Assembly: GCA_016874095.1 (NCBI GenBank) | Contig: VGVH01000017.1 | Span: forward strand, 1-49,615 | Length of the DNA: 49,615 nucleotides | Reading direction: 5' to 3' | Source: Gammaproteobacteria bacterium | GTDB taxonomy: Bacteria > Pseudomonadota > Gammaproteobacteria > Steroidobacterales > GCA-2729495 | Shown here: piece after piece, positions 18,244 through 38,286 of the stretch | How positions within the stretch are numbered: position 1 is the first letter of the stretch | How the letters are laid out: each line of letters starts with the position of its first letter | Made by a program: the position numbers and the translations under genes | Notes under the pieces: model-generated | What the model was told of the DNA's origin: nothing | Databases searched by the model: none | Seen by the model: the letters and a program-made list of their open reading frames with translations, nothing else

Positions 18244-19020
18244 ATGAAGGTCGTCATCTTCTGCGGCGGGCTCGGCACCAGACTGCGTGAGCACTCCGAC
18301 ACGATTCCAAAGCCGTTGGTCAACATTGGTTACCGGCCGATCCTGTGGCACCTGATGAAATTCTACGCTCACCACGGGCACAAGGATTTCATCCTGTGTC
18401 TTGGATACCGCGGTGATCTCATCAAGGATTACTTCCGCCATTACGACCCCTACCAGTCGATGAGCTTCACCATGCGCCGCGGCGGCAGAGAAATGGATCC
18501 GCCTGAGAGTGACATCGCCGATTGGAACATCACCTTCGCCGAAACCGCGTTGCACTCGAATATAGGCCAACGTCTCTGCGCCGTGCGCCAATACCTCGGG
18601 GACGACGAAATGTTCCTGGCGAACTACGGTGACCAGTTGTCGGACCTCCCCTTGGCCGAATACCTGGCTCGATTCACCGCAAGCAGCGCATTGGCCGGCT
18701 TCGTTGCGGTCCGGCCGTCGCAGAGTTTTCATACGGTAAGCATCGAAGCGGATGGCAATGTCGCGGCAATGGGGACGGTCGACGACGCTGAAGTCTGGAT
18801 AAACGGTGGCTATCTGGCGCTGCGAAAAACGGTATTCGACTACATCCGCGAGAAAGACGATCTGGTCGAAGCACCGTTCCAGCGCCTCATTGCCGAGCGC
18901 AAGCTGTTCGCCTGGAAATACCGCGGGTTCTGGAAGTCCATGGACACGTTCAAGGACAAAATCACCTACGATCGCATGCACAGCCAGGGCCAGACGCCGT
19001 GGGAAGTCTGGCGACGCTGA
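18244..19020 (+). CDS. rfbF: Glucose-1-phosphate cytidylyltransferase-like
   Basis: Makes CDP-glucose from CTP and glucose-1-phosphate, the entry to CDP-deoxysugars. The 258-residue protein has the GGLGTRL nucleotide motif (8-14), IPKPLVNIG, and the RfbF hallmark region LCLGYRGDLIKDYF. The later ANYGDQLSDL and WINGGYLALR segments match the metal and sugar sites. GGAAG lies nine bases upstream of the ATG, and upstream in-frame sequence overlaps the epimerase gene, so 18244 is used. CDP-glucose 4,6-dehydratase (rfbG), its usual partner, is not recognisable here. Confidence 0.87.
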   Translation: MKVVIFCGGLGTRLREHSDTIPKPLVNIGYRPILWHLMKFYAHHGHKDFILCLGYRGDLIKDYFRHYDPYQSMSFTMRRGGREMDPPESDIADWNITFAETALHSNIGQRLCAVRQYLGDDEMFLANYGDQLSDLPLAEYLARFTASSALAGFVAVRPSQSFHTVSIEADGNVAAMGTVDDAEVWINGGYLALRKTVFDYIREKDDLVEAPFQRLIAERKLFAWKYRGFWKSMDTFKDKITYDRMHSQGQTPWEVWRR

Positions 19021-19040
19021 GTCGGCACCGGAACCCGATC

Positions 19041-19697
19041 ATGCTGGATCTCGGTATCGCGAACGTACAAGGCCTGCAGAGGCTCCTCTGCATCGGGGCC
19101 CATTGCGATGACATCGAGATCGGCTGCGGCGGCACGGTTCTGACGCTGCTTGAACATCGACCCGAACTTGAGATCGACTGGGTCGTGTTCAGCTCGGATG
19201 CGGTTCGTGCCCGCGAAGCCGCGGCCAGCGCAGCGGATTTTCTCGGGCCGGGAAGCCACCGGCGCGTACGTGTTCTGGACTACCGCAACGGCTACTTCCC
19301 GAGCATGGTCGACTCGATCAAGGACTACTTCGAGCGACTAAAGCACGATGTCAGCCCGGATCTGGTGCTGACTCACCATCGCGGTGATTTCCATCAGGAT
19401 CACAGAACCCTCGCGGAGCTGAGCTGGAACACTTTTCGCAACCACTGCATTCTCGAGTACGAGATTCCCAAATTCGACGGCGATCTGGGGAGGCCGAATG
19501 CGTACGTCGCGCTCAGCGATGCGGTAATGCGCCGCAAAGTGGATCTCATCCTGCGTCACTTCGGTTCGCAGGCAGGCAAGCAATGGTGGACGGCCAGCAC
19601 GTTTGAAGCACTGATGCGGCTGCGTGGCGTGGAGTGCAACTCGCCCGGCGGTTACGCAGAGGCGTTTTTCGGACAGAAACTGCTGCTGCTTCGCTGA
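19041..19697 (+). CDS. PIG-L/LmbE family deacetylase
   Basis: A 218-residue zinc amidase of the PIG-L family, which removes acetyl groups from N-acetyl sugars or related compounds. Zinc motif AHCDDIEIGCGG (20-31; the usual AHPDD with Cys for Pro) and the second ligand motif HQDH (118-121) are present. ATG at 19041 starts the conserved domain; a frame starting 14 codons earlier overlaps the cytidylyltransferase. It is the last gene of the plus-strand operon and faces the TPR gene with 26 bases between. Together with the other genes it suggests a free-amine or C-methylated sugar. Confidence 0.85.
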   Translation: MLDLGIANVQGLQRLLCIGAHCDDIEIGCGGTVLTLLEHRPELEIDWVVFSSDAVRAREAAASAADFLGPGSHRRVRVLDYRNGYFPSMVDSIKDYFERLKHDVSPDLVLTHHRGDFHQDHRTLAELSWNTFRNHCILEYEIPKFDGDLGRPNAYVALSDAVMRRKVDLILRHFGSQAGKQWWTASTFEALMRLRGVECNSPGGYAEAFFGQKLLLLR

Positions 19698-20438: not shown

Positions 20439-21695
20439 CTACGCGGCTGCCGTGACTGCGCTGCCGGCTACTGCTGCAAGCAAGTCGGCCAGTTCCGCCG
20501 TCTGATGGCGACGCGAATACCGAGCGGCTGTTACCTCGGAGGCTACCGCGGCCGTGCCGCTGGCAACCGCGGCTAGGTAGCTCGGCAGTGCCGTTGCGAT
20601 CTCGTCGGCAGAACGGATGTCCATGACTGCCCCTGAGCCAGACTCCCGCAGCAAATCCGCGGTTTCGCCGGCATGATCGGTCAGCGCCAGAATCGGCCGT
20701 TGCGCCCGAATACACTCGTACAGCTTTGCGGGGACTAAGTGATTGCACCCCGCGTCCTGGAATATCAGCAACGCATCGGCATCGGCCATTTCCTGAAGGG
20801 CCTCGCCATAGGGTATTCGCGGCAGGATGCGCACGACACCGTCCAGACCTGCCTCGGCGACGAGGCGCTGGTGCAGGTTTTCGTCACCCGGCGCCCGAAA
20901 GACGACGTCGACGTCGCCTCGGCGTACGCCGCCAGCGCCAATGGCACGGGCGAGCCCGGCAAGAAATGGCCTGGGATCGCGCTCATTGAGTTTCAGCAAT
21001 CCGCTGTGAACGAGGCGCAAGGGTAAATTGTTCTGGCGTCGTGCAGTGGCCGGCATGGCGGCAAAGTCAGTCTCGTCGTATCCGTTGCGGATACAGACAA
21101 GGCGGCTCGTGGGATGTTCCGGATACCGCAATCTGTAAAGTTCGCGACTGGCGGGAGTCGTGAACACCGCGGCGCTGGCACTGGCGATGATTCGGGGCTC
21201 GATGCGCTCGAACCGCCGTCGCTGCGAAGGATCCTCGGGAAAATCATCGAACACCATCGCATCGCGGAAGTCGGCGACGTAGGGCAGCCCGGAAAGGCGG
21301 GACAGGCTCGCCGCGATGAGCAAGGCACTGGCGATCGGATAGGTCGCCCAGATGACCTCGGGCCGATGCCGACGGATCATCGAAAGGCCGCGAATGACCC
21401 CGAAAAGCCACCAACTGGCCCAGCGATCCGGCAGCGCCGTCAAGCCGAAATAACGGCCACGGTAGGCGAGATGGCGGCCGGCATCGATCGCAAAGGCGCG
21501 CTCCACGATGGCTTCTGACGGCACTTCCGCATTCTGATCCTCGCTTGTCTCGATGTAGGCATGGCGCGCGACGGTCAACACAAGAGGTCGCCATCCGTGC
21601 TCCGGAAGGTATTTGACGAACTTCAGCGGCCGCAGCAGGCCACTGCTCCCGCTGAAAGGCGGGAACTGGAACGACACCATGAGTACATTGCGCAT
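20439..21695 (-). CDS. Glycosyltransferase family 4 (GT-B)
   Basis: A 418-residue retaining GT-B glycosyltransferase. The N-terminal domain starts SFQFPPFSGSSGLLR, the central linker has RNGYDE, and the C-terminal nucleotide-sugar site shows LVPAKLYECI (the E-x7-E region) and RPILALTD. It is three bases downstream of the PLP-decarboxylase gene and in its operon. That pairing with the decarboxylase, ligase and ACP suggests it may add the sugar that is modified by the carrier-protein module, but this is inference. Confidence 0.85.
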   Translation of the reverse strand: MRNVLMVSFQFPPFSGSSGLLRPLKFVKYLPEHGWRPLVLTVARHAYIETSEDQNAEVPSEAIVERAFAIDAGRHLAYRGRYFGLTALPDRWASWWLFGVIRGLSMIRRHRPEVIWATYPIASALLIAASLSRLSGLPYVADFRDAMVFDDFPEDPSQRRRFERIEPRIIASASAAVFTTPASRELYRLRYPEHPTSRLVCIRNGYDETDFAAMPATARRQNNLPLRLVHSGLLKLNERDPRPFLAGLARAIGAGGVRRGDVDVVFRAPGDENLHQRLVAEAGLDGVVRILPRIPYGEALQEMADADALLIFQDAGCNHLVPAKLYECIRAQRPILALTDHAGETADLLRESGSGAVMDIRSADEIATALPSYLAAVASGTAAVASEVTAARYSRRHQTAELADLLAAVAGSAVTAAA

Positions 21696-21698
21696 GGA

Positions 21699-22937
21699 TC
21701 AGACGACGATCTGCTGCGGGGGTGGATGGCTCAGGAATCCCAACGGACTGGCGCTGTAGCCGTAGGCTCCGGACTGCAGGACCACCACGAGATCGCCGGG
21801 AGCCGCAACCGGCAGAAGCATGCCGTCCGCAAGCAGATCCAGTGGAGTACACAAGGGACCTACCACGGAGGCCACCTCGATTTCCGACTGAGCCATTCGA
21901 GTCCCTATGACGACCGGGTAATTCTTGCGAATGACCTGGCCGAAGTTGCCGCTCGCTGCGAGGTGATGGTGCAATCCACCGTCCGTCACGAGAAACACGC
22001 GACCCCGGGAAACCTTGCGGTCGACTACCTGGCAGACATAGAAACCGGCCTCGCCGACGAGGTAGCGGCCGAGCTCGATGACGAGCTGTGCCTGCGGCAG
22101 CGTCGTACGGCAGCGCGCTGCCAGCCTTTCCAGGCCTGCTCCGACAGACCTGGGGTCGAGCGGTTGCTCACCCGGAAAATAGGGAATGCCGAGACCGCCA
22201 CCGATGTTGAGGACCCGGACGGGTGCTGGAGCATCGGCGGCCAGGCGTTCTGCCAGAGCGACGCTGAGTTCCTGCGCCTCGCAGATGGCGCTCGCGCTCA
22301 AGTTCTGCGAGCCCGCGAAGATATGGAAGCCGTGGAAATCGACTGGCAGGCTGTTGATCCCCCGGAGCACGGCAGGTATCCGCTCCGCGTCGATGCCGAA
22401 AGGCGCCGCCCCGCCGCCCATCTTCATGCCGGCCGTCTTCAACTGGAAGTCCGGATTGACGCGCAGGGCTACGGCTGGCCGGCATCCCTCGCGCCGAGCC
22501 ATCGCTGCGAGCAGCCCAAGCTCGCGCTCCGACTCCACGTGGATCGTGATGCCGGCGCGCACCGCCCGAAACAACTCGTCCTCGCTCTTGCCCGGCCCGG
22601 CGAAGCTGATCCGCCCGGGCGCCATGCCCGCTGCCAGCGCGACCTGCAGTTCCCCCGCCGAAGCAACGTCGAAGCCATCGACCAGACCAGCAAAATGCTT
22701 GACCACGGCCGGCAGCGGATTCGCCTTGATTGCATAGTGCAAATGCAGGGACTGCGGTAGCGCCTCGCGCAGCTCCGCGACGCGCCGGGTCATCCGGGCG
22801 GTGTCGTACACATAGAGGGGTGATCGGCCGGCGGCAGCGTGGATGTCCCCTACCTTCCGCCCGCCGATCAGGAGCTGCCCGTCACGGATGTCGAGGCCAT
22901 CTATCGCGGCGTGAGGTAGCGACGCGCTATGACGCAC
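21699..22937 (-). CDS. PLP-dependent decarboxylase, XrtA-associated
   Basis: A 412-residue fold-type III (alanine-racemase-like) decarboxylase related to diaminopimelate and ornithine decarboxylases, of the XrtA-linked type (TIGR03099). PLP lysine Lys71 in HYAIKANP, HIFAGSQ, the phosphate-binding NIGGGLGIPY, and the C-terminal VVGPLCTPLD with the catalytic-type Cys are all present. It would decarboxylate an amino acid or an amino-acyl carrier. Its start overlaps the ligase gene by 11 bases, so translation is probably coupled. It is not a housekeeping lysA: the neighbourhood is the ACP module. Confidence 0.88.
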   Translation of the reverse strand: MRHSASLPHAAIDGLDIRDGQLLIGGRKVGDIHAAAGRSPLYVYDTARMTRRVAELREALPQSLHLHYAIKANPLPAVVKHFAGLVDGFDVASAGELQVALAAGMAPGRISFAGPGKSEDELFRAVRAGITIHVESERELGLLAAMARREGCRPAVALRVNPDFQLKTAGMKMGGGAAPFGIDAERIPAVLRGINSLPVDFHGFHIFAGSQNLSASAICEAQELSVALAERLAADAPAPVRVLNIGGGLGIPYFPGEQPLDPRSVGAGLERLAARCRTTLPQAQLVIELGRYLVGEAGFYVCQVVDRKVSRGRVFLVTDGGLHHHLAASGNFGQVIRKNYPVVIGTRMAQSEIEVASVVGPLCTPLDLLADGMLLPVAAPGDLVVVLQSGAYGYSASPLGFLSHPPPQQIVV

Positions 22938-24519
22938 GGCCTGCCGCCTCGATAAGGGGCCGAAATCGACCGATGATGCCGCTGCGATCGAGCTTCCCGT
23001 TCGGATTGCGTGGCAGATCGGCCTGCCACTCGACGACTGCAGGCACCATGAACGGCGGCACCTGGCGCCGGACAGCTTCGAGCAAATTCGGCGTATGGCC
23101 GACGCTGCCTGGCACGGGCTCGACTACGACAGCAATACTCTGACCGAGCTGCTCGTTCGTTACGCCGAACGCGACAGCTCCCACAACGAGTTGCGTGGAA
23201 TAGAGTGCTTCCTCCACCTCCGTCGGACTGACGCGGTAACCCGAAGTCTTGATCATCTCGTCGTTGCGCGCCACGAAATAAAGGAACCCCTCTTCGTCTC
23301 GCGTAACCAGGTCGCCCGACCAGACGGCAATTTCCGGCAACGGCAGCCCGGGAAAACGCTCTGGCATCGGTCGAAATCGTTGCCGCGTCTGCTCCTCGTC
23401 GCGCCAATAACCTTTCGCGACGAGCGGGCCCCGATGGACGAGCTCGCCTGCTTCGTTCGGCGCGCACTCCGTTCCGTCGGGTCGGACGACCAGCACTTCG
23501 GCGTGCGGAATCGCCTTGCCGATGGACGTCGGCCGCGAATCAGCGAGCTCGGGCGGAAGAAAGGTGGAGCGGAAGGCCTCGGTAAGGCCATACATGAGAA
23601 ATACCCGCGTTGCAGGACTTTTCTGCCGAAGCGTGCGCAGCGTCGCCTCGGGCATCTTGCCACCCGAGTTGGTGATGTAGCGCAGCGTCGATCGAACCTC
23701 CTCGGGCCAGTCGAGTGCGGCGAGCTGAATCCACAGTGGTGGGACGCCGGCCAGACCGGTAATCCGTTCACGCGCGGCAGATCGGACGACATCGCCGGGA
23801 ACCAGATAATTGAGGAGCACTACCCGTGCCCCCACGCGAAAAGCCGTACTGAGCTGGCTGAAGCCATAGTCGAAGCTGAACGGCAGAACGGACAGGATGC
23901 TGTCGTCTGCAGTGTTCCCCAAGTAGTCGGACACGCTGATGGCACCGGTGACCATGTTGCGATGGGTCAGCACCACTCCCTTCGGACGGCCCGTGCTGCC
24001 CGATGTGTAGAAGATGGACACCATGTCTTCGTCGATCGTCGCCGGCCTGACCAACGCCTGGCCGCGGGCCCGTATTTCCGGCAGTGCCACCACCGGGACA
24101 CGCAGGCGCAAATCCGCGGGCGGGGTATCCACCGTGACGACCAGAATCAAATCGTCCAGCGGCTGGAGAACTTCGGCGATTGCAGCCAGGCGACCTGCCG
24201 AGGTCACCAGGATGCAGGCAGCCGAGTCGGACAGTATGTGTGCGACCTGGGCGGCTTTGAGCGACGGATTAACCGGTACGAAGACACCACCGGCCGCCGC
24301 GGCAGCGAACATGGCAGTGACGTTTTCGGCGCTCTTAGGCAGGTAGATGGCGACGCGGTCGAAGCGGCACAGACCTGAGGCCTGGAATCCCGCAGCCAGC
24401 GTTGCCACATCCTGCGCCAGCGCGCCATAGGTCAGGAACCGGGCTGCATCGCGGAGCGCCTCGGCTTCCGGCCGCCGTTCCGCTGAGGACATAATCAGAT
24501 CGTGCAGGAGCTGCGTCAC
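22927..24519 (-). CDS. Acyl-CoA ligase / adenylating enzyme, XrtA-associated
   Basis: A 530-residue ANL-superfamily enzyme (TIGR03098 type). ATP-binding YTSGSTGRPKG (171-181), A5 motif MYGLTEAFRSTF, A7 WSGDLVTRDEEGF, A8-type NDEMIKTSGYRV and the catalytic Lys in NPNGKLDR are all intact, so it should be active. It activates a carboxylic acid as an adenylate and loads it to CoA or, more likely here, to the ACP encoded divergently at 24761. The substrate is unknown. First gene of a minus-strand operon with the decarboxylase, GT4 and TPR genes. Confidence 0.9.
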   Translation of the reverse strand: MTQLLHDLIMSSAERRPEAEALRDAARFLTYGALAQDVATLAAGFQASGLCRFDRVAIYLPKSAENVTAMFAAAAAGGVFVPVNPSLKAAQVAHILSDSAACILVTSAGRLAAIAEVLQPLDDLILVVTVDTPPADLRLRVPVVALPEIRARGQALVRPATIDEDMVSIFYTSGSTGRPKGVVLTHRNMVTGAISVSDYLGNTADDSILSVLPFSFDYGFSQLSTAFRVGARVVLLNYLVPGDVVRSAARERITGLAGVPPLWIQLAALDWPEEVRSTLRYITNSGGKMPEATLRTLRQKSPATRVFLMYGLTEAFRSTFLPPELADSRPTSIGKAIPHAEVLVVRPDGTECAPNEAGELVHRGPLVAKGYWRDEEQTRQRFRPMPERFPGLPLPEIAVWSGDLVTRDEEGFLYFVARNDEMIKTSGYRVSPTEVEEALYSTQLVVGAVAFGVTNEQLGQSIAVVVEPVPGSVGHTPNLLEAVRRQVPPFMVPAVVEWQADLPRNPNGKLDRSGIIGRFRPLIEAAGRAS

Positions 24520-24760
24520 GGGAGTGGTCCTGGGTTCTTGCTCGCCCTCATCGCCCGAGCCGACGGCACTGACGGCCGGCGGACAGGATCGAAGTCGCGA
24601 CTGGCGGGCATTCTAAACAAGGGCGCCGCCAGTCGCTGAGAACTGCGGCATGGTTACTCTGCGTGGCTGGCGCCTTGTTTTAAAATAGAATTTTAGCCCT
24701 ATCCGCCCTGGACACACCGTCTGATTGGCGAACCACGGGCAACATCCGGAGCTACGCGGC
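24520..24760. promoter_or_regulatory. Divergent control region with a TAAAAT/ATTTTA inverted repeat
   Basis: This 241-base gap between the ligase (minus) and ACP (plus) genes is the presumed promoter region for both arms of the carrier-protein module. An AT-rich island at 24676-24696 contains TAAAAT (24681-24686), three bases and ATTTTA (24690-24695), a perfect dyad. Each half reads TAAAAT on its own strand and could act as a -10 box, so the two promoters may overlap. No good -35 hexamer stands 16-18 bases away on either side, which suggests an activator or another sigma factor. GGAG at 24748 is the ACP ribosome site. Confidence 0.4.
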
Positions 24761-25012
24761 ATGGTCGAACAGCAGGTCCGCAGCATTCTGAGAGATACCC
24801 TCCAGCTGGGGGCTCGCGCCGACCGCCTGGGGCCGGATTCGGCACTCATGGGTGCAATTGCCGAACTGGATTCTATGGCGGTCGTCACCGTCATCGCCGC
24901 AATCGAAGAACAGTGTGGAATCGTCGTCGAGGACGACGAAATCTCGGCGGAAACCTTTGCGACGTTCGGATCACTTGTCGCATTCGTCACCAGCAAAGCG
25001 CCGCACCCGTGA
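24761..25012 (+). CDS. Acyl carrier protein, XrtA-associated
   Basis: An 83-residue carrier protein. Ser38 in AELDSMAVVTVIAAIE is the phosphopantetheine site (consensus DSL/DSM), within the usual four-helix length and acidic composition. ATG at 24761 is chosen because GGAG lies nine bases upstream; a TTG-started frame adds 12 poor residues. The stop overlaps the GTG of the next gene, so the two are translationally coupled. It presumably carries the acyl or aminoacyl group made by the divergent ligase and must be activated by a phosphopantetheinyl transferase, such as the one at 1893. Too divergent to be the fatty-acid ACP. Confidence 0.9.
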   Translation: MVEQQVRSILRDTLQLGARADRLGPDSALMGAIAELDSMAVVTVIAAIEEQCGIVVEDDEISAETFATFGSLVAFVTSKAPHP

Positions 25013-25845
25013 CGAAAGCCGGCGGCGCCGCCCTCCGGCCCTTTTTCTTCGGCACGGCGCGCCACAGGCTTTTCGGCCTGGCAGGCGAGCCCGTCGGGAA
25101 TGACACCGGGAGGGGGCTCCTGATCTGCCCTCCATTCGCCGACGAGATGAACCGGGCGCGTTCGACGTTGCGTCTGCTGGCAGCATGTGCAGCGCAAGCC
25201 GGATTCCGACCACTGCTCTGCGATCTGTACGGTACAGGCGACAGTGACGGTGATTTGGCAGACGCCTCATGGGGCGGCTGGCTGGATGACCTGACCGCAG
25301 CCGCCGCCTGGCTGAGCGAAAGGGGCAACCGAAAGCTGGCGGTCGTCGCCTTGCGCAGCGGCGCGTTGCTGGCGAACGATCTTTTTCCCGGCCGGCTGCC
25401 CCGCCCGGACAAGCTGGTGCTCTGGCAGCCCCATCTGGCAGGAAAATACGTGCTCCAGGACCTGCTGCGCACCAGAGTTGCTGCCGCAGCGGCCGCCGGT
25501 GGTCGGGAGTCCGTTTCGGGCCTGAGGGATCAGCTTTCTCGGGGAACCGCCCTAGAAGCATCAGGCTATGCCATCACTCCATCGCTTGCTGCGTCGCTCG
25601 ATCAGGCGATGCTCGAACCTGCCATCGCTTCAGCCGCGAAGACCGCTGTCTGGATCGAGGTGGTGAGCGAGCCGAACATCCCACTGAGACCAGCCGCCGC
25701 GCAGTTTTTGGAGCACTGTCTGCAACACACCGCCCCGGTTGCCGCAAAAATGGTCGTGGATCCGCCTTTCTGGGCCACGACCGAAACCACCGTCGGCGCG
25801 GCGAGTGTCAGCGCCATCATGAACTGCTTGCAGGACAATCCGTGA
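25009..25845 (+). CDS. Alpha/beta hydrolase, XrtA-associated (hydrolase 2 type)
   Basis: A 278-residue alpha/beta-hydrolase-fold protein resembling the XrtA hydrolase 2 family (TIGR03101): LLICPPFADEMNRAR (37-51) and LLCDLYGTGDSDGD (69-82) mark the core. At the nucleophile elbow the sequence is VALRSGALLA: the position expected for Ser is Arg116, with Ser117 one place off, so the classical G-x-S-x-G is absent. It may therefore be a binding or transferase-like protein. The GTG start overlaps the ACP stop codon; coupling to the ACP gene suggests it acts on the ACP-bound intermediate. Confidence 0.82.
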   Translation: MTKAGGAALRPFFFGTARHRLFGLAGEPVGNDTGRGLLICPPFADEMNRARSTLRLLAACAAQAGFRPLLCDLYGTGDSDGDLADASWGGWLDDLTAAAAWLSERGNRKLAVVALRSGALLANDLFPGRLPRPDKLVLWQPHLAGKYVLQDLLRTRVAAAAAAGGRESVSGLRDQLSRGTALEASGYAITPSLAASLDQAMLEPAIASAAKTAVWIEVVSEPNIPLRPAAAQFLEHCLQHTAPVAAKMVVDPPFWATTETTVGAASVSAIMNCLQDNP

Positions 25846-26702
25846 CTTCCGTAGAAGCAATCGAGTTCGATTGCGACGGCGACGGTCTCGTCGGTATCCT
25901 GCACCGACCCGAAACGCCTGCCGCGACCGGAGTCATCATCGTCGTCGGCGGACCGCAGTATCGTGTCGGCAGCCACCGGCAGTACGTGCTTCTGGCCCGC
26001 CAACTGAGCGCAAACGGATTCGCCGTGCTGCGATTCGATTGCCGCGGCATGGGCGACAGCGAAGGCAGGTTTCCAGGCTTCGAGCACATTGGTCCGGACA
26101 TCCGTGCAGCCGTCGACACAATGTGCCGACGCGTGCCCGTCATCTCGCGAGTCGTCCTCTGGGGCCTGTGCGACGCGGCATCCGCCTGCATGATCCACGG
26201 ATGGCGGGATGAGCGTATTGCCGGCCTCGTAGCGCTGAACCCCTGGGTGCGGAGCGACCAGACCCTGGCGCGCGCCTACCTGCGCGGTTACTACGTGCGG
26301 CGGCTTCTCAGCCGCGACTTCTGGATCGGGCTGCTCAGCGGCAGGATGCAGGCAGCCGCTGCGGCGCGTGATCTCCGTCAACAGCTCGCAGCAGTGACAT
26401 CGGATGGGTCAGGTGCTGATTTCGTTGCAGACATGCTAGGCGGGCTCGATCGTATCAAGGGTCCCGTGGCGATCATTCTGAGTGGGAACGATCTCGTCGC
26501 AGTTGAGTTCTCGACCGTAGCCGCACGCGCGGACTGGCAACGGCTGCTGGCCGAGCCAAGATTCCTCCAGCATACGGTGAAAGCCGCCACCCACACTTTC
26601 TCGAGCGCCGCATGGCGCGCCGAAGTGGAGCGGGAAACATTGGCCGTCGTTACCATGGTGGATCGAGACCTCACGGCTGAGAACTGCCGACGCTTGCCAT
26701 GA
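25842..26702 (+). CDS. Alpha/beta hydrolase, XrtA-associated (hydrolase 1 type)
   Basis: A 286-residue alpha/beta-hydrolase protein of the XrtA hydrolase 1 type (TIGR03100). GGPQYRVGSHRQ (36-47) and FDCRGMGDSEG (65-75) are typical. The nucleophile elbow is WGLCDAAS, with Cys110 where hydrolases usually have Ser; Asp in LSGNDLVA and His in KAATHTFSS could complete a Cys-His-Asp triad. A Cys nucleophile suits thioester chemistry, for example acyl transfer from the ACP. GTG start overlaps the previous stop, and its stop overlaps the next ATG, so four genes are coupled. Confidence 0.83.
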   Translation: MTSVEAIEFDCDGDGLVGILHRPETPAATGVIIVVGGPQYRVGSHRQYVLLARQLSANGFAVLRFDCRGMGDSEGRFPGFEHIGPDIRAAVDTMCRRVPVISRVVLWGLCDAASACMIHGWRDERIAGLVALNPWVRSDQTLARAYLRGYYVRRLLSRDFWIGLLSGRMQAAAAARDLRQQLAAVTSDGSGADFVADMLGGLDRIKGPVAIILSGNDLVAVEFSTVAARADWQRLLAEPRFLQHTVKAATHTFSSAAWRAEVERETLAVVTMVDRDLTAENCRRLP

Positions 26703-28444
26703 ACAGGCTTCTGGGTATTGCAGGCGACATCGGTTCGATGTCTAGCCCTGCCGGGGAGTTCGATGACGGTCTCGCGCTGGCCGAACTGACCGGGTCAGGC
26801 CTCTCGGCCGTCGCCCGTGGCGATCCCGGCCTTGCTGCGATGGGAGTACTCGCCACCGGCCGTCCGCTCGCCGTTACCGGCGCACTGACTACCGCCCGGG
26901 CGTGGCTCGCCGCACTGCCTGCACTAGGCGGATCCTTTGTGCTCGTCACCTGGGACGAGGGCCAGCGATTACTTAGCGTGGCAACCGACCGCTTCGCGAG
27001 CCTCCCTGTCTACTACAGCTTCGCGCAGCGGCGGCTCGCGTTCGGGACCGATGCCGCCTGGGTGCTGCGAAACGGCCGCCTGGACGGGCGCCTGGACCCG
27101 CAGGCCCTGTACGACTATCTGTTCTTTTCGGTGGTGCCTTCGAACCGGGGCATCGTCAGTGGCCTGATGAAAATCCCGCCCGCCAGCATCCTGACACTGC
27201 GTGACGGGCGGATCACGGTACAACGCTACTGGACCCCTGATTTTCGTCGGGGCCCGCTTGACCGCCGGCAGCTCGCGAAAGATATGGTCGAGCGCGTACG
27301 CGCTGCGGTCACCGGCGCTGCGCAACTGCCTGATACCGGGTGCTTTCTGAGCGGCGGCCTCGACAGCTCTACTGTCTGCGGCATGGCGAGTCAGGCGCGT
27401 GGCGGGGCGGTGCCAGCGTTCACTATCGGCTATGACGTGCCTGAATTCGATGAAAGTCGCTATGCGCGTATCACCGCAGCGCACTTCGGCCTGGATCTTC
27501 ATGAGCACTGCGTCAGATCGACCGACGTCGCTCATTGCATGTCGAAGGTGATCAACGCGTTCGATGAACCCTTCGGCAACCCATCGGCACTATCGGCATA
27601 CCTGTGCGCACAGTTTGCGCGTGAGGCAGGTGTCAGCAACCTCCTCGCCGGCGACGGCGGCGATGAGTTGTTCGGCGGTAACGAACGCTACCGGAAACAA
27701 GCCGTGTTCGAGCTCTACGGTCGCCTGCCTGGCCTGTTGCGCGCGGGTTTCGTCGATCCGCTGTCCAGATTGCTGCGGCATGCTCCGGGTCCTCTTCCGA
27801 AGCTGATGAGCTACGTCCGGCAGGCGCGCGTACCGCTACCGGACAGGCTCTACAGCTACAACCTGCTTGTACGCCACGACGTACGCAACGTACTTACGCC
27901 GGCGTTCCTCGCCGACGTCGATGTCGAATCACCCTACGAATATGCGAGAAACCTGTACCGCGTGCCGCCGTCAGGCGACTCCCTGGACCGCATGCTGTAC
28001 CTGGATTGGACCACGACGCTGACCGACAACGACCTGCCGAAGGTCACCGTGGCCTGCCGTCTCGCCGGCGTGCAGCCGCATTTTCCGTTGCTCGACCCGG
28101 GAATCGTCGACGTCTCGCTGCAGATACCCAGCCGGGAAAAGCTGGACCTGCGCGTACTGCGCAAGTTCTACAAGTCCGCTTTCCGCGATTTCCTGCCCGG
28201 TGAGATCATCCGCAAGCCAAAGCACGGATTCGGGGTACCGGTGGGTATCTGGGTCAACCGGGACGAATCGCTCCGGGCCAGTATGCGCGAGCGCCTGGCG
28301 AGTCTGGCACGCCGCGATATCGTCTTGCCTGGGCTGCTGGATCAGTTGCTCGACCTCCAGACGAGCGAGTACCCGTCCTATTACGGGTCGCTGCTCTGGC
28401 CCCTGTTCGCACTCGAGGAGTGGTTACAGGGCCACGGCTATTGA
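26699..28444 (+). CDS. Asparagine-synthetase-like amidotransferase lacking the glutaminase site
   Basis: A 581-residue AsnB-family protein. The synthetase half is intact: PP-loop FLSGGLDSSTV (216-226), GDGGDELFGG, and KPKHGFGVPVG near the end. The N-terminal half keeps remnants of the Ntn fold (LSVATDRFASLPVYY) but begins MNRLLGIAGD: the catalytic Cys2 is absent and the usual RGPD, NGEIYN and related Gln-binding motifs cannot be found. It therefore cannot use glutamine; it may use free ammonia or another amine, as beta-lactam-synthetase-like relatives do intramolecularly. It ends the ACP operon and overlaps the convergent GT4 gene by seven bases. Confidence 0.85.
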   Translation: MNRLLGIAGDIGSMSSPAGEFDDGLALAELTGSGLSAVARGDPGLAAMGVLATGRPLAVTGALTTARAWLAALPALGGSFVLVTWDEGQRLLSVATDRFASLPVYYSFAQRRLAFGTDAAWVLRNGRLDGRLDPQALYDYLFFSVVPSNRGIVSGLMKIPPASILTLRDGRITVQRYWTPDFRRGPLDRRQLAKDMVERVRAAVTGAAQLPDTGCFLSGGLDSSTVCGMASQARGGAVPAFTIGYDVPEFDESRYARITAAHFGLDLHEHCVRSTDVAHCMSKVINAFDEPFGNPSALSAYLCAQFAREAGVSNLLAGDGGDELFGGNERYRKQAVFELYGRLPGLLRAGFVDPLSRLLRHAPGPLPKLMSYVRQARVPLPDRLYSYNLLVRHDVRNVLTPAFLADVDVESPYEYARNLYRVPPSGDSLDRMLYLDWTTTLTDNDLPKVTVACRLAGVQPHFPLLDPGIVDVSLQIPSREKLDLRVLRKFYKSAFRDFLPGEIIRKPKHGFGVPVGIWVNRDESLRASMRERLASLARRDIVLPGLLDQLLDLQTSEYPSYYGSLLWPLFALEEWLQGHGY

Positions 28445-30963: not shown

Positions 30964-31971
30964 TCAGAACCGCCCTGCCGCCTGCTCTGGCGCCAGACAA
31001 CTGCCGCCGCGCTCGTTGAGACGCGCCGACAACAAGCGCATCGAGAACCGCCACCGGCTGTTCCCGCAGGACCCGACGCGTGGGATCTCGTAGCGATCAG
31101 TAGCAGGGTCGGAATATCCCCACACAGTCGTCATGGCGGCCGCGAATCCAGCTTCCCTCACCAGCATCATCTCACGCGGACCATAGTCGTCCCCGGGCCT
31201 GCCGTTCGGATAGGCGAACAGACGCACCGGCTCGCCGATGATTGCCTCGAGATCCACCTTGCCTCCAACGATGTCGTTGCGCGCTTCTTCGAGCGACTGC
31301 CGGGCCAATATGGGGTGCGTACGTGTATGGCTGCCGATGTGCATACCCGCGCGATGCAGGCGCAGCACGTCCTCGCTGCGCATCATCACGTTGGCGGGAA
31401 CCTCTTGCCTGACGGAAGCCAGCAATCGCTCAGCGCACTCCATACGGCGCGCCCGGTCAAAATACTTGACCTTGAGATTGATCTGTTGCGCGAGGGCGTG
31501 GCGCTCGGGCAGTGGGCCCGGCTGCAGCACACCAAGTTCGGCGATACCGGTATCCCAGTTGGCGGCAGGCGCATGGCGGCATGCCTCGATGACGGCAGTG
31601 TGGAACATGCAGCCGCCGTCGAGATAGCCTGTCGAGACGAAAAAAGTCGCGTGCAGACCGAGCGACGACAGTACACCCAGCGCTTCTTTCGCGTTGTCGG
31701 CGAAGCCGTCGTCGAACGTAATGGCGACGGTACCGGGTGGCAACCGTTTCGCACCCTGAAGACGCAATGCGTCGGCGAGGGGCATCACGTTGAAATCGCT
31801 TTGCAGGACTTCCATGAGACGCCGGAAAGATTCCCGGTCGGGCGTCTCCGGATCCAAGGGATCCGGCACCGGCGAGACACGATGGTAGGTCAGCACCAGC
31901 AGCCGATTAGACGCACCAAGAAACTGGGTTGCCCGTTCTAAGCTGCGAACTGTGGCAGAGCGCAGACTCAT
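30964..31971 (-). CDS. Polysaccharide deacetylase (NodB domain)
   Basis: A 335-residue carbohydrate esterase family 4 protein. LTYHRVSP opens the domain; VAITFDDGFADN carries the Asp-Asp pair and SHTRTHP the two zinc His. AYPNGRPGDDYG is the later motif. No signal peptide is evident; the first 25 residues are only mildly hydrophobic. It would remove N-acetyl groups from the polymer or precursor. It overlaps the GT4 gene upstream by four bases (ATGA). It differs from the DUF3473 deacetylase at 38289, so the operon has two. Confidence 0.86.
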   Translation of the reverse strand: MSLRSATVRSLERATQFLGASNRLLVLTYHRVSPVPDPLDPETPDRESFRRLMEVLQSDFNVMPLADALRLQGAKRLPPGTVAITFDDGFADNAKEALGVLSSLGLHATFFVSTGYLDGGCMFHTAVIEACRHAPAANWDTGIAELGVLQPGPLPERHALAQQINLKVKYFDRARRMECAERLLASVRQEVPANVMMRSEDVLRLHRAGMHIGSHTRTHPILARQSLEEARNDIVGGKVDLEAIIGEPVRLFAYPNGRPGDDYGPREMMLVREAGFAAAMTTVWGYSDPATDRYEIPRVGSCGNSRWRFSMRLLSARLNERGGSCLAPEQAAGRF

Positions 31972-33239: not shown

Positions 33240-34432
33240 CCAGGGCCCCCGGACGGATGGAGCCCGTCCAGCAGCGCGTCCATCCGGCGCATGGAGTGCG
33301 CCCAGCTATGATGACTCAATACGCGCTCGCGGCCGGCCGACGCCAAGGCACGCCGGCGCTGTCGGTCTGCAAGTACCTCGATTACCGTACTGGCACACTC
33401 GGCGGGGGAGTCAGCTGTCAGCAGGTGTTCGCCAGGCCGCGCATCGACTCCGCGTGACGCCAGCGTGGAACAGACCACCGGCACGCCCAACGCCATGGAC
33501 TCCAGAATCTTGTTCTGGGTGCCACGCGCCACGTCGAGTGGCGCGACACTGACGGCCGCTCCACGCACGTGCGGGCGGATGTCCGGCACGGTGCCGGTGA
33601 CCGTGATGCCCGGCCGCTCGGCAAGAGCGCGTATGAATCCGGGCGGTTCGGCGCCGACTATCACGAGCCGAGCGGCCGGCCTTTGTTTGCGAATGAGCCC
33701 GAAGGTGCTGCCGCAAAAACGCATTACCGCCTGTTGATTGGGAAAATAGTCCATGCGGCCTGAAAAGCAGATCAGGTCGGGATCGTAGTCGTCACCGGCC
33801 GGGGAAAAGTACTCGGCGTCCACACCGTTGGGAAACCAGCCCGTGCGCGGCGAGGATTCAAGCGAACAGAGGGTGTCGTGCTCGGCAGCCGTCGTACAGG
33901 TCGACAGGTCGAAACGCCGCGCCAGCTCCCTTTCCACCCGCCGGAGCTTGAGGGCCTCGAGCCAATACCCTGCCGACAGCGGAAAGGGCCGGTGCCTGGA
34001 GTACGTCGACCACTTCTCCGAGTCCATGTCGCCGAAGTCGAGCACCTTCGGGCAACCCCGATGGGCAACGACATAGGGCGCCACCGAAGAACAGTGCACG
34101 AAGACCAGGTCGTAACGACCATCACGCAACTCCCTCTGCACCCGGGCCGCGAGCCTGGGTGACCAGAAATTACCGAACGACGAGGGCGAGGTGAGCGGCA
34201 GTCGGGCCACCATCCGTACGTTCGCCGCCAGCTGACTCACTGGCTCCGCCAGAATGCGGCTGCAATGCTTAGCGAGCCCCTCACCGGCGATCCGCTCCTC
34301 TTCTGACCGCCACAGGGAGGCAACGGTCACTTCGGCATATCTGGACAGGTGCCTGATGATGTTGAATGGGCGAATCTTTCCGCCGCGAGCCGGCGGATAG
34401 GGGAAGCGATGGCAGATGAAAAAGATTCTCAT
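33236..34432 (-). CDS. XrtA-associated glycosyltransferase (TIGR03087 type)
   Basis: A 398-residue GT-B enzyme starting FICHRFPYPPARGGKIR, the signature of the PEP-CTERM/XrtA sugar transferase family. Further landmarks are KVLDFGDMDSEKW, FSGRMDYFPNQQAV and LDVARGTQNKILESMALGVP with the donor-site Glu. ATGA overlaps join it to the AsnB gene upstream and the GT4 gene downstream, so the three are translated as a unit. It probably adds an early, conserved sugar, as it is one of the most constant GTs in such loci. Confidence 0.9.
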   Translation of the reverse strand: MRIFFICHRFPYPPARGGKIRPFNIIRHLSRYAEVTVASLWRSEEERIAGEGLAKHCSRILAEPVSQLAANVRMVARLPLTSPSSFGNFWSPRLAARVQRELRDGRYDLVFVHCSSVAPYVVAHRGCPKVLDFGDMDSEKWSTYSRHRPFPLSAGYWLEALKLRRVERELARRFDLSTCTTAAEHDTLCSLESSPRTGWFPNGVDAEYFSPAGDDYDPDLICFSGRMDYFPNQQAVMRFCGSTFGLIRKQRPAARLVIVGAEPPGFIRALAERPGITVTGTVPDIRPHVRGAAVSVAPLDVARGTQNKILESMALGVPVVCSTLASRGVDARPGEHLLTADSPAECASTVIEVLADRQRRRALASAGRERVLSHHSWAHSMRRMDALLDGLHPSGGPG

Positions 34433-36375
34433 GCGACCCTTGCTACCTGCGTTTTCTCAGCAATCTCGGCAGCAACATCTTCAGGCGAGCGCCGGTCGAG
34501 GAATATCCGGCACCATATCTCGAGATTCATCAGGCACTGCAAATTATCGGAAAAGTCGTGACGCGCAGACTCATGCATGGCCATCGTCTCGGCAACGACA
34601 GCCGGATCGAACAGACCTCGCCGATCCATGGACTCAGGGGACAGGGTCGCGTGCATGAGCGGTCGCAATTCCTGCTTGAGCCATACGCCCATCGGCGCGC
34701 CGAAGCCGCGCTTCGCCTTTTTCAGCACTTGCGGCGGCAGGCTGTCTCGCAGTGCAGTCTTGAACAAGTGCTTGAGTCCGGCGCCATGAATCTTCATGGA
34801 TGATGGCACGCGGGCCGCAAGATCGACCATCGTGTTGCTCAGCAAAGGCACGCGGCACTCCAGGGACGTTGCCATCGTCGTCTTGTCCGTCAGCAGCAGG
34901 AGATCGTCTGGCAGCTGCGTGACCATATCGACCTGCATCAGGCGATTGACGAAATCCGTCCCCGGGAAACGCCGGAAAGCGTCGGCCAGGGGATCGCGAC
35001 CCGCAGGCGGAATTCCGCCTCTTACGAGCCGCATGCGCGCCGCAGAATCGAACAGCCGCACGTAGGCGATATATTGCTCTTCCACAGGCAGCGTGGAGTG
35101 ACTCACGAACTCCCGGGCGTATCGCAACAGATTGGATACCGGATCATGGCGATCGCTGGGCAGTCGCGCGGCCAGCGGCACCAGCCATCTTTCGCGGACC
35201 CAGCGAGGGACGTATTCGAAACGGCTGAGATAGTGCGGACCCAGGTACCGACGATACCCGCCCAGCAGTTCGTCCCCCCCGACGCCCGAAAGGATTACGG
35301 TCACGTCCCGCCTCGCGAACTCGGCAACAAGAAAGGTCGTCATGATGGCCGAGTCGGCAATCGGCTCGTCCATGTGCCAGAGAAGCCGCGGCAGCAATTC
35401 GACGACATCAGGGCGGACGATGATCTCGCGATGCTCTGTTGCGAAGTGCTGCGCCACCCTGCGGGCATCGGGCAACTCGTTGTAGTAGGTGCCTGCCCGA
35501 CCCAGGTCGAAACCGATCGAGTAGGTCTTCGTCGGCCCGCTGCCCGCTCCGGCCATCATGGCGACGACTGCACTGGAATCGATGCCGCCGCTGAGAAACG
35601 CTCCGAGCGGCACATCTGCGACCATCTGCTGGCGAACGGAGCGCCGCACGGCTGCGAGCAGCTCCTCGCGCGCCTCCTCTTCGCTCCCGAACGGATCAGC
35701 GGTCACCGGCGACCAATAGGACTTGACGGATATCTGACCGTCCTCAGCCACCAGGAGATGGCCCGGTGGCAGCTTCTTTATCCCTTGGAACAGCGTACGT
35801 GGTGCGGTCACGTAGCCCAGGTACAGCAGCTCATCAAGGGCATCGCGATCGATCTCCCGCGGCATGCGCGCCACGGCCAGGATGGACTTGATCTCCGATG
35901 CGAATATCAGCCGGCCGCCGTCGATACTGTAGTACACCGGCTTGATGCCGAGGCGATCACGACCGATGAGGAGGCGATGCTTGTACTCGTCCCATAGAGC
36001 GAAACCGAACATCCCATCCAGGCGGCCAACCATCGCATCGCCCTGCTCGGCATACAACTGCACGAGAACTTCGCAGTCGCTTCCAGTCGCAAATCGCCGG
36101 CCTTGGGCCTGCAGCTCACGACGAAGTTCGCGAAAGTTGTAAATCTCGCCGTTGCAGACCAGTTGCACTTTGCCGTCGGCCGTGTGCAGCGGCTGATGCC
36201 CTCCGGCGATATCGATAATGGACAGCCGCCGCATGCCCAGCAGCAAACCAGGGCGCTCGAACAGGCCAGAGTCATCCGGCCCCCGGTGCCGGCTGATGTC
36301 GCCCATCCGGTCGGCGAGAGCGCGGTCCAGCGTTTCATCGCCGCGCAACGAGAGGATGCCGTGAATCCCGCACAT
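34429..36375 (-). CDS. asnB: Asparagine synthase-type amidotransferase (glutamine-hydrolysing)
   Basis: A 648-residue AsnB-family enzyme with a complete glutaminase half: Cys2 nucleophile in MCGIHG, RHRGPDDSG, VCNGEIYNF, and a synthetase half with PP-loop AFLSGGIDSSA and GVGGDELLGGYRRYLG. It uses glutamine-derived ammonia and ATP to amidate a carboxyl. In EPS loci the target is often a uronic-acid or amino-acid substituent; the GDP-mannuronate from algD is a possible origin, but this is inference. It lies six bases after the next amidotransferase in the same operon; together with the 26699 gene there are three paralogues. Confidence 0.88.
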   Translation of the reverse strand: MCGIHGILSLRGDETLDRALADRMGDISRHRGPDDSGLFERPGLLLGMRRLSIIDIAGGHQPLHTADGKVQLVCNGEIYNFRELRRELQAQGRRFATGSDCEVLVQLYAEQGDAMVGRLDGMFGFALWDEYKHRLLIGRDRLGIKPVYYSIDGGRLIFASEIKSILAVARMPREIDRDALDELLYLGYVTAPRTLFQGIKKLPPGHLLVAEDGQISVKSYWSPVTADPFGSEEEAREELLAAVRRSVRQQMVADVPLGAFLSGGIDSSAVVAMMAGAGSGPTKTYSIGFDLGRAGTYYNELPDARRVAQHFATEHREIIVRPDVVELLPRLLWHMDEPIADSAIMTTFLVAEFARRDVTVILSGVGGDELLGGYRRYLGPHYLSRFEYVPRWVRERWLVPLAARLPSDRHDPVSNLLRYAREFVSHSTLPVEEQYIAYVRLFDSAARMRLVRGGIPPAGRDPLADAFRRFPGTDFVNRLMQVDMVTQLPDDLLLLTDKTTMATSLECRVPLLSNTMVDLAARVPSSMKIHGAGLKHLFKTALRDSLPPQVLKKAKRGFGAPMGVWLKQELRPLMHATLSPESMDRRGLFDPAVVAETMAMHESARHDFSDNLQCLMNLEIWCRIFLDRRSPEDVAAEIAEKTQVARVA

Positions 36376-36381
36376 GCCGAG

Positions 36382-38286
36382 CTATCGCCCCGTCGCTCCC
36401 AGCACCTGACGCTGGAAGCTCTCATAGAGCAGCAATGACCAAAGCATCGCGCTGTGATCGCGCAGGCCGGCCTGGTGCTCGGTCACCAGCGTGTCGACTG
36501 CGACCATGTCGAAGACCCCCGAGTCGCCGAGCGAACCGCGCGTAAGCCGATCTCGCAGCGTCTGGCGAAGCTCATGCCTGAACCAGCGACCGAGCGGCAC
36601 GGCAAATCCCATTTTCGGGCGATAGATCACCTCGGCCGGAACGTGCCTGGCCACTGCCTTCTTGAACACGTATTTCCCCTCCGAGCCACGCAATTTCAGG
36701 TCGCGGGGCAAGCCCGCCGCCCATTCGACGAATTCGTGGTCGAGCAGCGGGGCGCGCACTTCGAGGCTGTTAGCCATGCTGGCGCGATCGACCTTGGTGA
36801 GGATGTCCCCCACCAGGTTCGTCTTGATATCGATGTACTGCACCTTTGAGAGCGCGTCGAGACCATCGAGGTTGCGCTCGACGGCGCGAAATACGTCGAT
36901 CGCCTTGTAGCCCTGGAGATTCGCCTTGTGCTCACGGGAAAACAGCATCGAGCGTACCTTCTCGCTGGCGATCGACACGCTGTCGAAATAGGCGTCGAGG
37001 CCCGACCGCGACATTGCGCCGAGCGTCGCCTTCGCGCGGAACATCCGCGGGGCCCAATCGGCTCGCGGATAAAGCCTCGCAAGAGTGCCGAACAACGGCC
37101 GACGTAATCCGAGCGGCAACAGGCGGCGGAACGTTTCCTCGTTCATGTGCCAGAGATAGCGTCGGTACCCGCCCAACACTTCATCGCCGCCGTCACCGGA
37201 CAGAGCGACCTTGACGTGCTTTCTCGCCAGTTCGCACACACGAAAAGTGGGCAGCGCGGAACTGTCGGCAAACGGCTCGTCGTAGATACCTGCGAGACGG
37301 TCCACGAGACCGATGTCGTTCGGGTCGACTGACTCCACGAAATGCCTGGTGGCCAGGACTTCCGCCACGCGCCGCGCATGCCGGGACTCGTCGAACGCGG
37401 TTTCTCCGAAGGATATCGAACAGGTATTCACGGGCTGCGCCGAACTTCGCGCCATCATGGCCACAACGCCGCTGGAATCCACCCCGCCGGACAGGAATGC
37501 TCCAACAGGTACATCAGCGATCATCCGGATCCGCACAGCCTCCTCGAATCGTTCGAGCAGCAGCTGTATCGCAGTTTCCTCGTCCTGCGCGCGCACCGGA
37601 CTGAAACTCACGTCCCAATAGGACTGCGGTTCAGGAACTGGCCGCCCCCGAGCAGCGACCAGCGTCGATGCCGGCGGCAATTTCCGTACCGACCTGAGGA
37701 TGCAGCGCGGATCGGCCACGTAGCCGAGGGCAAAGTACTCTTCGATGGCGCATGGGTCGATGGCCCTCGACACTCCCGGATAACGAAGCAGTGCTTTCAG
37801 CTCCGAAGCGAAGACGATCTCGCCGGCCGGGAGTACCGCGTAATAAAGAGGCTTCTTGCCAAGGCGATCGCGGGCGAGAAAAAGCTCGCCGCGATTGCGG
37901 TCCCAGATGGCGAACGCAAACATGCCGCGGAACCGCTTGACGCAGTCCCTTCCCCACTCCTCCCAACCGTGGACGATGACTTCGGTATCGGTTCGCGTAC
38001 GGAAGCGATGACCCAGCGCTTCGAGTTCCTGGCGCAGACCCTGGAAATTGTAGATCTCGCCATTGAATACGATAACGACCGAATCGTCCTCGTTGCAGAG
38101 CGGCTGTTTGCCGGTGGACAGATCGATGATCGAGAGGCGGCGGTGTCCGAGACCGACGCCGGGTTCGACGTGGAAACCCTCATCGTCGGGGCCCCGATGC
38201 ACCTGTGTGTCGTTCATCGCGCGCAACAGGTTGCGGTCGATCGGTCGCTCACCCGACATGTCGATGATGCCAGTTATCCCGCACAT
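36382..38286 (-). CDS. XrtA-associated amidotransferase (TIGR03108 type)
   Basis: A 634-residue glutamine-dependent AsnB-family enzyme with MCGITGIIDMSG (Cys2), HRGPDDEG, VFNGEIYNFQ, RLGKKPLYY and the synthetase PP-loop AFLSGGVDSSG, then SGDGGDEVLGGYRRYLWH. This sequence type is a regular member of exosortase A loci. All glutaminase and ATP-pyrophosphatase residues are present. It follows the deacetylase gene after two bases. It may amidate a uronic acid in the exported polymer. Confidence 0.9.
   Translation of the reverse strand: MCGITGIIDMSGERPIDRNLLRAMNDTQVHRGPDDEGFHVEPGVGLGHRRLSIIDLSTGKQPLCNEDDSVVIVFNGEIYNFQGLRQELEALGHRFRTRTDTEVIVHGWEEWGRDCVKRFRGMFAFAIWDRNRGELFLARDRLGKKPLYYAVLPAGEIVFASELKALLRYPGVSRAIDPCAIEEYFALGYVADPRCILRSVRKLPPASTLVAARGRPVPEPQSYWDVSFSPVRAQDEETAIQLLLERFEEAVRIRMIADVPVGAFLSGGVDSSGVVAMMARSSAQPVNTCSISFGETAFDESRHARRVAEVLATRHFVESVDPNDIGLVDRLAGIYDEPFADSSALPTFRVCELARKHVKVALSGDGGDEVLGGYRRYLWHMNEETFRRLLPLGLRRPLFGTLARLYPRADWAPRMFRAKATLGAMSRSGLDAYFDSVSIASEKVRSMLFSREHKANLQGYKAIDVFRAVERNLDGLDALSKVQYIDIKTNLVGDILTKVDRASMANSLEVRAPLLDHEFVEWAAGLPRDLKLRGSEGKYVFKKAVARHVPAEVIYRPKMGFAVPLGRWFRHELRQTLRDRLTRGSLGDSGVFDMVAVDTLVTEHQAGLRDHSAMLWSLLLYESFQRQVLGATGR

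Follow-up and report, generated by a model that had tools for sequence, protein, structure and literature searches.

The gene module in question is part of a contig of a gammaproteobacterium of the Steroidobacterales (VGVH01000017.1, assembly GCA_016874095.1), analyzed here over a stretch of 49,615 nucleotides (the window), and it encodes an acyl carrier protein (ACP), a stand-alone adenylating ligase, a decarboxylase dependent on pyridoxal phosphate (PLP), two alpha/beta-hydrolase-like proteins (hydrolases 1 and 2) and a protein resembling the asparagine synthetase AsnB, all within an exopolysaccharide (EPS) locus that also encodes exosortase A (XrtA). Sequence comparisons suggest that this module is probably a supply line for a carrier-bound beta-amino acid destined for surface polysaccharide, in which L-aspartate would be converted into beta-alanyl-S-ACP. 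The family memberships, the residues, the co-occurrence of the genes and their order come from the computational comparisons themselves, and the respective carrier-protein reactions have been demonstrated for relatives; by analogy, the same reactions are expected here, with L-Asp as the substrate. The original prediction, made from the DNA of the window, was that an amino or carboxylic acid is loaded onto the ACP and decarboxylated. As to the loading of an amino acid and its decarboxylation, this is well supported by comparison (residues of the VinN/AfcQ type, kinship with BtrK, co-occurrence), and the acid can now be narrowed to an amino-dicarboxylate, most likely L-Asp, yielding beta-alanyl-ACP.

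As to the ligase, it is predicted to load L-Asp onto the ACP via the side-chain carboxylate. The original prediction described this enzyme as divergent, which does not hold, as it scores well above the cut-off for the TIGR03098 family. When it is aligned with VinN (PDB 3wv4, whose chain numbering is the native one plus 16, as deduced from the three residues falling into register), D217, S285 and R317 correspond to D230, S299 and R331 of VinN, residues whose described roles concern the amino group and the alpha-carboxylate (PMC7756342). The Arg equivalent to R317 is present in all 45 sequences of the family (the window and the Burkholderia arboris locus L144 included) versus 1 of the 51 control adenylating enzymes, and the full D-[ST]-R set is present in 44 of the 45 versus 1 of the 51. 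The controls were those among 54 loci (L090-L143) with more than 380 aligned residues, and rows scoring below 300 bits (L086-L089) were excluded from both groups; these four distant ligases do not possess the full set, and two of them have the Arg. At ten pocket positions, named here after the standard scheme for the phenylalanine-activating enzyme as tentatively assigned via its motifs, the window ligase reads D Y S G I N S M R S, the L144 ligase D A S G F N T M R S, and VinN D F Y I F N S M R I. The first two are equal at 7 of the 10 positions, with mismatches at 236 and 299 and a Ser/Thr exchange at 302, and the L144 string is identical in family members from Sinorhizobium, Rhizobium, Burkholderia cenocepacia and Paraburkholderia.

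The comparison with L144 is of consequence since its ligase, which passes TIGR03098 (630.8 bits versus the cut-off of 592.35), is identified here as AfcQ, from the anatomy of the locus and not from a comparison with the published sequences. The locus sits on a 1.26-Mb replicon and presents a weakly KAS III-like gene, followed by the decarboxylase gene and then by the ligase gene, matching the order and the functions of afcO-afcP-afcQ (PMC12186527). The same locus encodes a second AMP-binding ligase, whose C-terminus is a DIP2-like domain, as AfcA would be expected to have, and the spacing between the Arg and the Lys of the L144 ligase, of 192 residues, equals that of R311 and K503 of AfcQ. The report on this pathway describes AfcQ activating L-Asp in vitro and loading it onto AfcK, in a step that can be repeated, and semi-pure AfcP decarboxylating the bound Asp to beta-alanine in vitro, with repeated addition of beta-Ala observed (PMC12186527). 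Attachment via the side chain is deduced in that report from the logic of the beta-amino-acid product, from homology and from docking (PMC12186527).

As to the decarboxylase, it is predicted to turn aspartyl-S-ACP into beta-alanyl-S-ACP. Its best relative in the PDB is BtrK (259.9 bits), followed by the best LysA (168.7 bits), and for BtrK the decarboxylation of a glutamate attached to BtrI, a carrier protein, has been described (PMC7857480). At the position of the His in the LysA motif C-H-I-GSQ, all 42 family rows, the window included, possess an aromatic residue (Phe in 35, Tyr in 7), with F207 in the window, Tyr in BtrK and Phe in the L144 enzyme, versus His in all nine control decarboxylases. 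The loop RP-x-LY, present in six of the nine controls, is replaced in the window by HHHLAASGNFGQ...NYP, resembling HHHAAST...NYP of BtrK. The PLP lysine is conserved in all 40 rows covering its position. Rows below 330 bits were excluded from these counts (L082, at 254 bits, which has the Tyr as well). A function as LysA or in the synthesis of free diamines was considered and is disfavored, given F207, the missing RP-x-LY loop and a score of 249.6 bits to TIGR01048 (LysA), below the cut-off of 297.9. In one of the rhizobial loci, of Sinorhizobium meliloti (L041, 11500-12712), the decarboxylase frame is split and missing from an incomplete gene table, representing either a pseudogene or a sequencing error.

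The distribution of these genes was followed across 185 genomes sampled evenly from the class. The decarboxylase is present in 21 of them, counting 19 above the cut-off, along with G158 (455.8 bits) and G094, in which it is in two pieces. The ligase is above the cut-off in 21 genomes, 19 of them shared with the decarboxylase set; in G077 (contig C87) and G120 (contig C118) it is found with no decarboxylase above the cut-off. The ACP was searched for with a model built from 27 of 30 aligned ACPs (threshold of 40 bits), at a limit (E ≤ 1e-20) set after viewing the matches, and it is present in 18 of the 21 decarboxylase genomes versus none of the 164 others (Fisher p 3e-22), with five weaker matches left uncounted (4e-15 to 9e-10; G045, G059, G005, G049, G080), all outside the decarboxylase set. 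If the 11 genomes feeding the model are excluded, then 7 of 10 versus 0 of 164 are positive (p 1.4e-10). The three decarboxylase genomes with no ACP are 75, 81, and 87% complete. Hydrolase 1 is present in 15 genomes, all within the decarboxylase set. In six of the seven genomes that did not contribute to the model, the ACP gene is on a different contig from the decarboxylase gene, and in the seventh (G124) it is about 9 kb from the ligase and decarboxylase genes, while in five of the seven no more than about 1 kb separates hydrolase 1 from the ACP gene. The association of the four genes thus exceeds chance, and the ACP, the ligase and the decarboxylase are found together even when unlinked.

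The ACP itself maintains its phosphopantetheine Ser in all 30 aligned sequences, and 2lki, entered as a putative uncharacterized protein, is the sole relative with a solved structure at E ≤ 1e-8. The original prediction also pointed to a phosphopantetheinyl transferase (PPTase) in the window, and the respective domain is present, as one of two ACPS-family matches in the genome. It could prime the ACP, but its tie to the ACP is not specific, because it is more than 20 kb away and because frames with multiple carrier domains in the same genome would need a PPTase too: five of six carrier-domain matches on contig C18 (L001, L002, L004-L007) are in open frames of 2124 and 3290 residues, which are probably genes for nonribosomal peptide synthetases (NRPS) or polyketide synthases.

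Hydrolase 1 possesses Cys110, Asp217 and His251, invariant in 17 of 17 aligned sequences, and its AF2 model, a confident one (pLDDT 88.6), is an alpha/beta-hydrolase with PET46 and feruloyl esterases as the nearest folds; DcsB is found at rank 30 of the fold list and GrgF, an enzyme that uses Cys, at rank 49. GrgF is described as an alpha/beta-fold enzyme fusing two polyketide chains (PMC8902786). The second of the two hydrolases predicted originally is present as well, with the same overall fold (AF2 model, pLDDT 89.7, match to PET46), but it lacks the catalytic nucleophile and the His, possessing an invariant Arg116 and F254-W255 at the respective places (13 of 13 sequences). Of the 17 loci that encode hydrolase 1, the window included, 15 have the genes on one strand in the order ACP-hydrolase 2-hydrolase 1. 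Hydrolase 1 is a likely candidate for an off-loading acyltransferase, as the coupling of its gene to that of an ACP, together with its Cys nucleophile, would suggest acyl transfer, and hydrolase 2 is its probable non-catalytic partner.

The AsnB-like protein next to hydrolase 1 retains the SGGxDSS motif of the ATP site, and with it the part that forms amides at the expense of ATP, but it starts with MNRLLG, and the glutaminase Cys2 is missing both in this protein and in four aligned relatives (5 of 5). A normal glutamine-dependent amidotransferase is ruled out by this and by a score far below the TIGR03108 cut-off, which weakens the proposed amidation of the loaded group. As its gene is met in few of the loci compared, the protein is accessory. 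Two adjoining genes elsewhere in the window (34429-36375 and 36382-38286) encode the remaining AsnB-like proteins; both start with MCG, and the second passes TIGR03108 (984.5 bits) while the first does not (537 versus 817).

The following course of events would be consistent with these observations. A PPTase would arm Ser38 of the ACP, and the ligase would adenylate an amino-dicarboxylate, most likely L-Asp, at the side-chain carboxylate and transfer it to the ACP as a thioester, as the pocket residues, AfcQ and VinN suggest. The decarboxylase, given its kinship with BtrK and the reactions of the same kind carried out by AfcP and VinO, would then strip the alpha-carboxylate on the ACP to give beta-alanyl-S-ACP. 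The loading and the decarboxylation may be repeated to produce a short beta-alanine chain, like in the afc pathway. Hydrolase 1, via Cys110 and aided by hydrolase 2, might move the group to an amine or a hydroxyl of a cytoplasmic EPS precursor, and this transfer to the polysaccharide is suggested more weakly than the preceding steps. A cytoplasmic acceptor is plausible because the window contains genes for deacetylases of the PIG-L and Polysacc_deac_1 types. The AsnB-like protein, its own ammonia source lost, could conceivably join an amine to a uronate or a similar acid.

The acceptor of the group deserves separate consideration, as delivery to the anchor of PEP-CTERM proteins was originally proposed along with delivery to the polymer. 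The link of the module with exosortase A is real: XrtA is above the cut-off in 34 of the 185 genomes, and in 13 of the 21 decarboxylase genomes versus 21 of the 164 others (p 2e-6), while three of the eight decarboxylase genomes with no XrtA above the cut-off (G008, G044, G068) show a weaker exosortase match. However, this link is looser than that among the four genes. Occurrence of the module only with exosortase A is rejected by these eight genomes, in five of which no exosortase is matched at E ≤ 1e-30; conversely, the decarboxylase is missing from 21 of the 34 XrtA genomes. The ligase, the decarboxylase, and the ACP are also found together in loci of Sinorhizobium, Aureimonas and Rhizobium, with annotated glycosyltransferases and polysaccharide deacetylases adjoining in the former two and similar open reading frames (ORFs) in the unannotated Rhizobium stretch, and no exosortase is annotated, or detected by similarity to the window protein, within the 17.5-21.5 kb read in these three loci (the rest of the genomes was not searched). 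As the core is also found in polysaccharide loci with no exosortase detected, the group is more likely to be delivered to the polymer than to the PEP-CTERM anchor, and a module serving the anchor or the exosortase step appears improbable. The source genome encodes two exosortases above the XrtA cut-off (one in the window and one on contig C28), along with two weaker matches on contig C6.

While the core is constant, the neighbors able to off-load the group vary. Hydrolase 2 is not detected in the rhizobial loci by similarity to the window protein, and in two Burkholderiaceae loci an ACP is encoded about 2 kb from the ligase and the decarboxylase, one of these loci (L043) also with KAS III-like and acyl-CoA-dehydrogenase-like genes around. 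In the rhizobial loci, a protein encoded directly before the ligase (L041, 8988-9887; L042, 9101-9970; L044, 6852-7955), 55-59% identical among them and with no match in Pfam or the PDB, resembles GNAT acyltransferases by eye and might serve to off-load the group there. In three further loci (L083, L084, L088), which encode more distant ligases, an ACP-like ORF and an AsnB-like gene are nearby, with no decarboxylase detected, perhaps representing a version that skips decarboxylation.

Alternative readings concern the substrate and the release of the group. The same machinery could act on L-Glu, to give gamma-aminobutyryl-S-ACP as in butirosin, or on a substituted Asp such as 3-methylaspartate, and we consider this rather unlikely: while the best solved relative of the decarboxylase, BtrK, is a glutamyl-ACP enzyme, and while VinN, with the same D/S/R residues, is reported to take 3-methylaspartate (PMC11284099), the AfcQ-type ligase, which acts on L-Asp, has the same residues at pocket positions 239, 301, 322, 330, and 331. 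Equally improbable as the PEP-CTERM target is a decarboxylase acting on free lysine, ornithine or diaminopimelate, next to a ligase activating an unrelated carboxylic acid and an ACP arm with a third function. The wider fold family of the decarboxylase does hold LysA and diamine-forming enzymes, but the Phe/Tyr in place of the LysA His, the BtrK-like HHH motif, the co-occurrence of ACP and decarboxylase across whole genomes, and the VinN-type Arg of the ligase all speak against such a division. More serious, if still doubtful, is the possibility of hydrolase 1 working as a thioesterase, for editing or for release, and setting beta-alanine free, leaving the final bond to a glycosyltransferase, to a FemAB-like or to the AsnB-like protein. 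Its nearest folds are esterases and lipases, a FemAB-family protein is present in the locus, and the AsnB-like protein keeps its ATP site with no ammonia source of its own; the invariant nucleophile, however, is Cys and not Ser (17 of 17) and the gene overlaps within the ACP operon, both of which suggest transfer, and a carrier-bound route would seem wasteful for making free beta-alanine.

A number of observations weigh against the proposed conversion of L-Asp and its link to polysaccharide. In the ligase, the D217-equivalent Asp is present in 44 of the 45 family members and in 46 of the 51 controls, thus not discriminating, and Ser/Thr at 285 is present in 44 of the 45 and also in 8 of the 51, so that the weight of the VinN-type signature is carried by R317. 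At full length, the window ligase scores higher against the LgrA synthetase (251 bits) than against VinN (213), and the family profile gives LgrA a higher total as well (388, best single domain 210, versus 260 for VinN). In the decarboxylase tree, BtrK joins TIGR03099 versus the controls with a support of only 91/77 and long branches, and the very long branch of the L144 (afc) decarboxylase could not be placed. The latter has diverged strongly from TIGR03099, scoring 54 bits against the window protein and matching no NCBIfam model at 1e-30, and the afc chemistry is therefore transferred here via the ligase and BtrK and not via the afc decarboxylase. As the substrate of BtrK is Glu, the choice between Asp and Glu falls to the ligase pocket alone. 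Hydrolase 1 is missing in 6 of the 21 decarboxylase genomes and was not detected, by similarity to the window protein, in the rhizobial and Burkholderia loci. Finally, nothing on beta-alanine in exopolysaccharides was found in the open-licence literature.

Carrier-protein lines for beta-amino-acyl groups are known from macrolactams and lipopeptides, and a gamma-amino-acyl line is known from butirosin. In butirosin formation, the loading enzyme is of another kind, and the transfer to the sugar is by an unrelated transferase. Another example of a carrier protein serving an envelope polymer is the Dlt system, in which D-Ala is activated and placed on a small carrier protein to decorate teichoic acid, with a membrane transferase and no decarboxylase; kinship with the module is not claimed past the carrier-protein fold (ACP versus DltC, 30 bits). 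The resemblance to BtrI/BtrK is in the related decarboxylase, in the aromatic residue replacing the LysA His and in the aminoacyl group being built on an ACP (PMC7857480), with Glu as the differing substrate. The VinN/VinL/VinO enzymes of vicenistatin and the FlvN-type supply of beta-amino acids (PMC11284099) likewise combine a stand-alone adenylating enzyme, with the D/S/R residues in VinN, a stand-alone ACP, and a PLP decarboxylase, but they feed a polyketide synthase after an alanine is added, and at pocket position 239 VinN has a Tyr where the window ligase has a Ser. For bolagladin, loading and decarboxylation of Asp by VinN-like and BtrK-like enzymes on a free ACP (BolO/BolC/BolN) have been proposed, the product being of the NRPS type and not a polysaccharide (PMC7756342). 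AfcQ/AfcK/AfcP, of the Burkholderia lipopeptide AFC-BC11 (PMC12186527), share with the module a TIGR03098 ligase, given the identification of L144, and the decarboxylation of carrier-bound L-Asp; they differ in the far-diverged decarboxylase, in the lipopeptide product and in other off-loading enzymes, versus the polysaccharide locus here. Beta-amino-acyl carrier lines in exopolysaccharide loci were not found in the open-licence literature, and the available part of a paper from the exosortase and floc literature makes no mention of an ACP, a decarboxylase, an asparagine synthase, or an amidotransferase (PMC9850573).

The ligase, decarboxylase, ACP, hydrolase and AsnB-like genes named originally are all intact at the coordinates first given and closely spaced on two divergent arms, which together with the adjoining glycosyltransferase gene span 20439-28444, as defined by ORF coordinates and family profiles (Table 1). 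The ligase and decarboxylase genes overlap by 11 bp, and overlaps of 4 bp each are found between the genes for the ACP and hydrolase 2, for hydrolases 2 and 1, and for hydrolase 1 and the AsnB-like protein, the start of hydrolase 2 being taken as a GTG at 25009 and not as the first in-frame start at 24913. Four of the families in the module are typed as hypothetical equivalogs by NCBIfam. The glycosyltransferase adjoining the decarboxylase is a recurrent neighbor, with relatives in 8 of 40 loci, the window included; besides this protein, the ligase, the decarboxylase, and the two hydrolases, clustering of the neighboring ORFs returned only frames antisense to or inside the ligase and decarboxylase genes. 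Genes for a deacetylase, chain-length, export, exosortase, FemAB-family, and PrsT functions are found at 38-49 kb. The region between the arms contains two sigma-54-like TGGC-N7-TTG sites with similar flanks, at 24618-24631 (−) and 24664-24677 (+), facing both arms. Ten such sites are found in the window versus 6.5 expected, the pair being notable by position alone, and it was not found in the four relatives compared.

Table 1. Features of the module and of its surroundings in the window.
Feature	Coordinates	Strand	Family match and remarks
Sfp-type PPTase domain	~1893-2591	+	PF17837 and PF01648; C-terminal part of ORF 1032-2591
PIG-L-type deacetylase gene	18999-19697		PIG-L type
GT4-like glycosyltransferase	20439-21695	−	PF13579; adjoins the decarboxylase, left arm
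Decarboxylase (PLP-dependent, BtrK-like)	21699-22937	−	TIGR03099, 593 bits (cut-off 478.45)
Ligase (stand-alone, adenylating, VinN/AfcQ-type)	22927-24519	−	TIGR03098, 738.9 bits (cut-off 592.35)
Divergent intergenic region between the ligase and ACP arms	24520-24760	none	241 bp, from coordinates
ACP	24761-25012	+	PF00550, 31.8 bits; phosphopantetheine Ser38, intact DS
Hydrolase 2 (alpha/beta-hydrolase-like)	25009-25845	+	TIGR03101, 197.1 bits (translation from the over-long start 24913), just below the cut-off of 202.75
Hydrolase 1 (alpha/beta hydrolase)	25842-26702	+	TIGR03100, 328.5 bits (cut-off 168.45)
AsnB-like synthetase	26699-28444	+	228.8 bits versus the TIGR03108 cut-off of 816.9
Polysacc_deac_1 deacetylase gene	30964-31971		Polysacc_deac_1 type

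In conclusion, the predicted conversion of L-Asp into beta-alanyl-S-ACP would provide a concrete function for families associated with exosortases and polysaccharides. If true, it would explain why one ligase family is shared by a lipopeptide cluster and by polysaccharide loci of rhizobia, and positively charged groups would be expected on flocs and biofilms. As a more tentative extension, many Gram-negative bacteria may decorate their exopolysaccharides with beta-alanyl, possibly oligo-beta-alanyl, groups made on a dedicated carrier and moved by a Cys-type alpha/beta-fold acyltransferase along with its dead paralog, a Dlt-like charge switch for biofilm polysaccharides that would supply the function still missing for the families of ligases, decarboxylases, and hydrolases associated with exosortase A.

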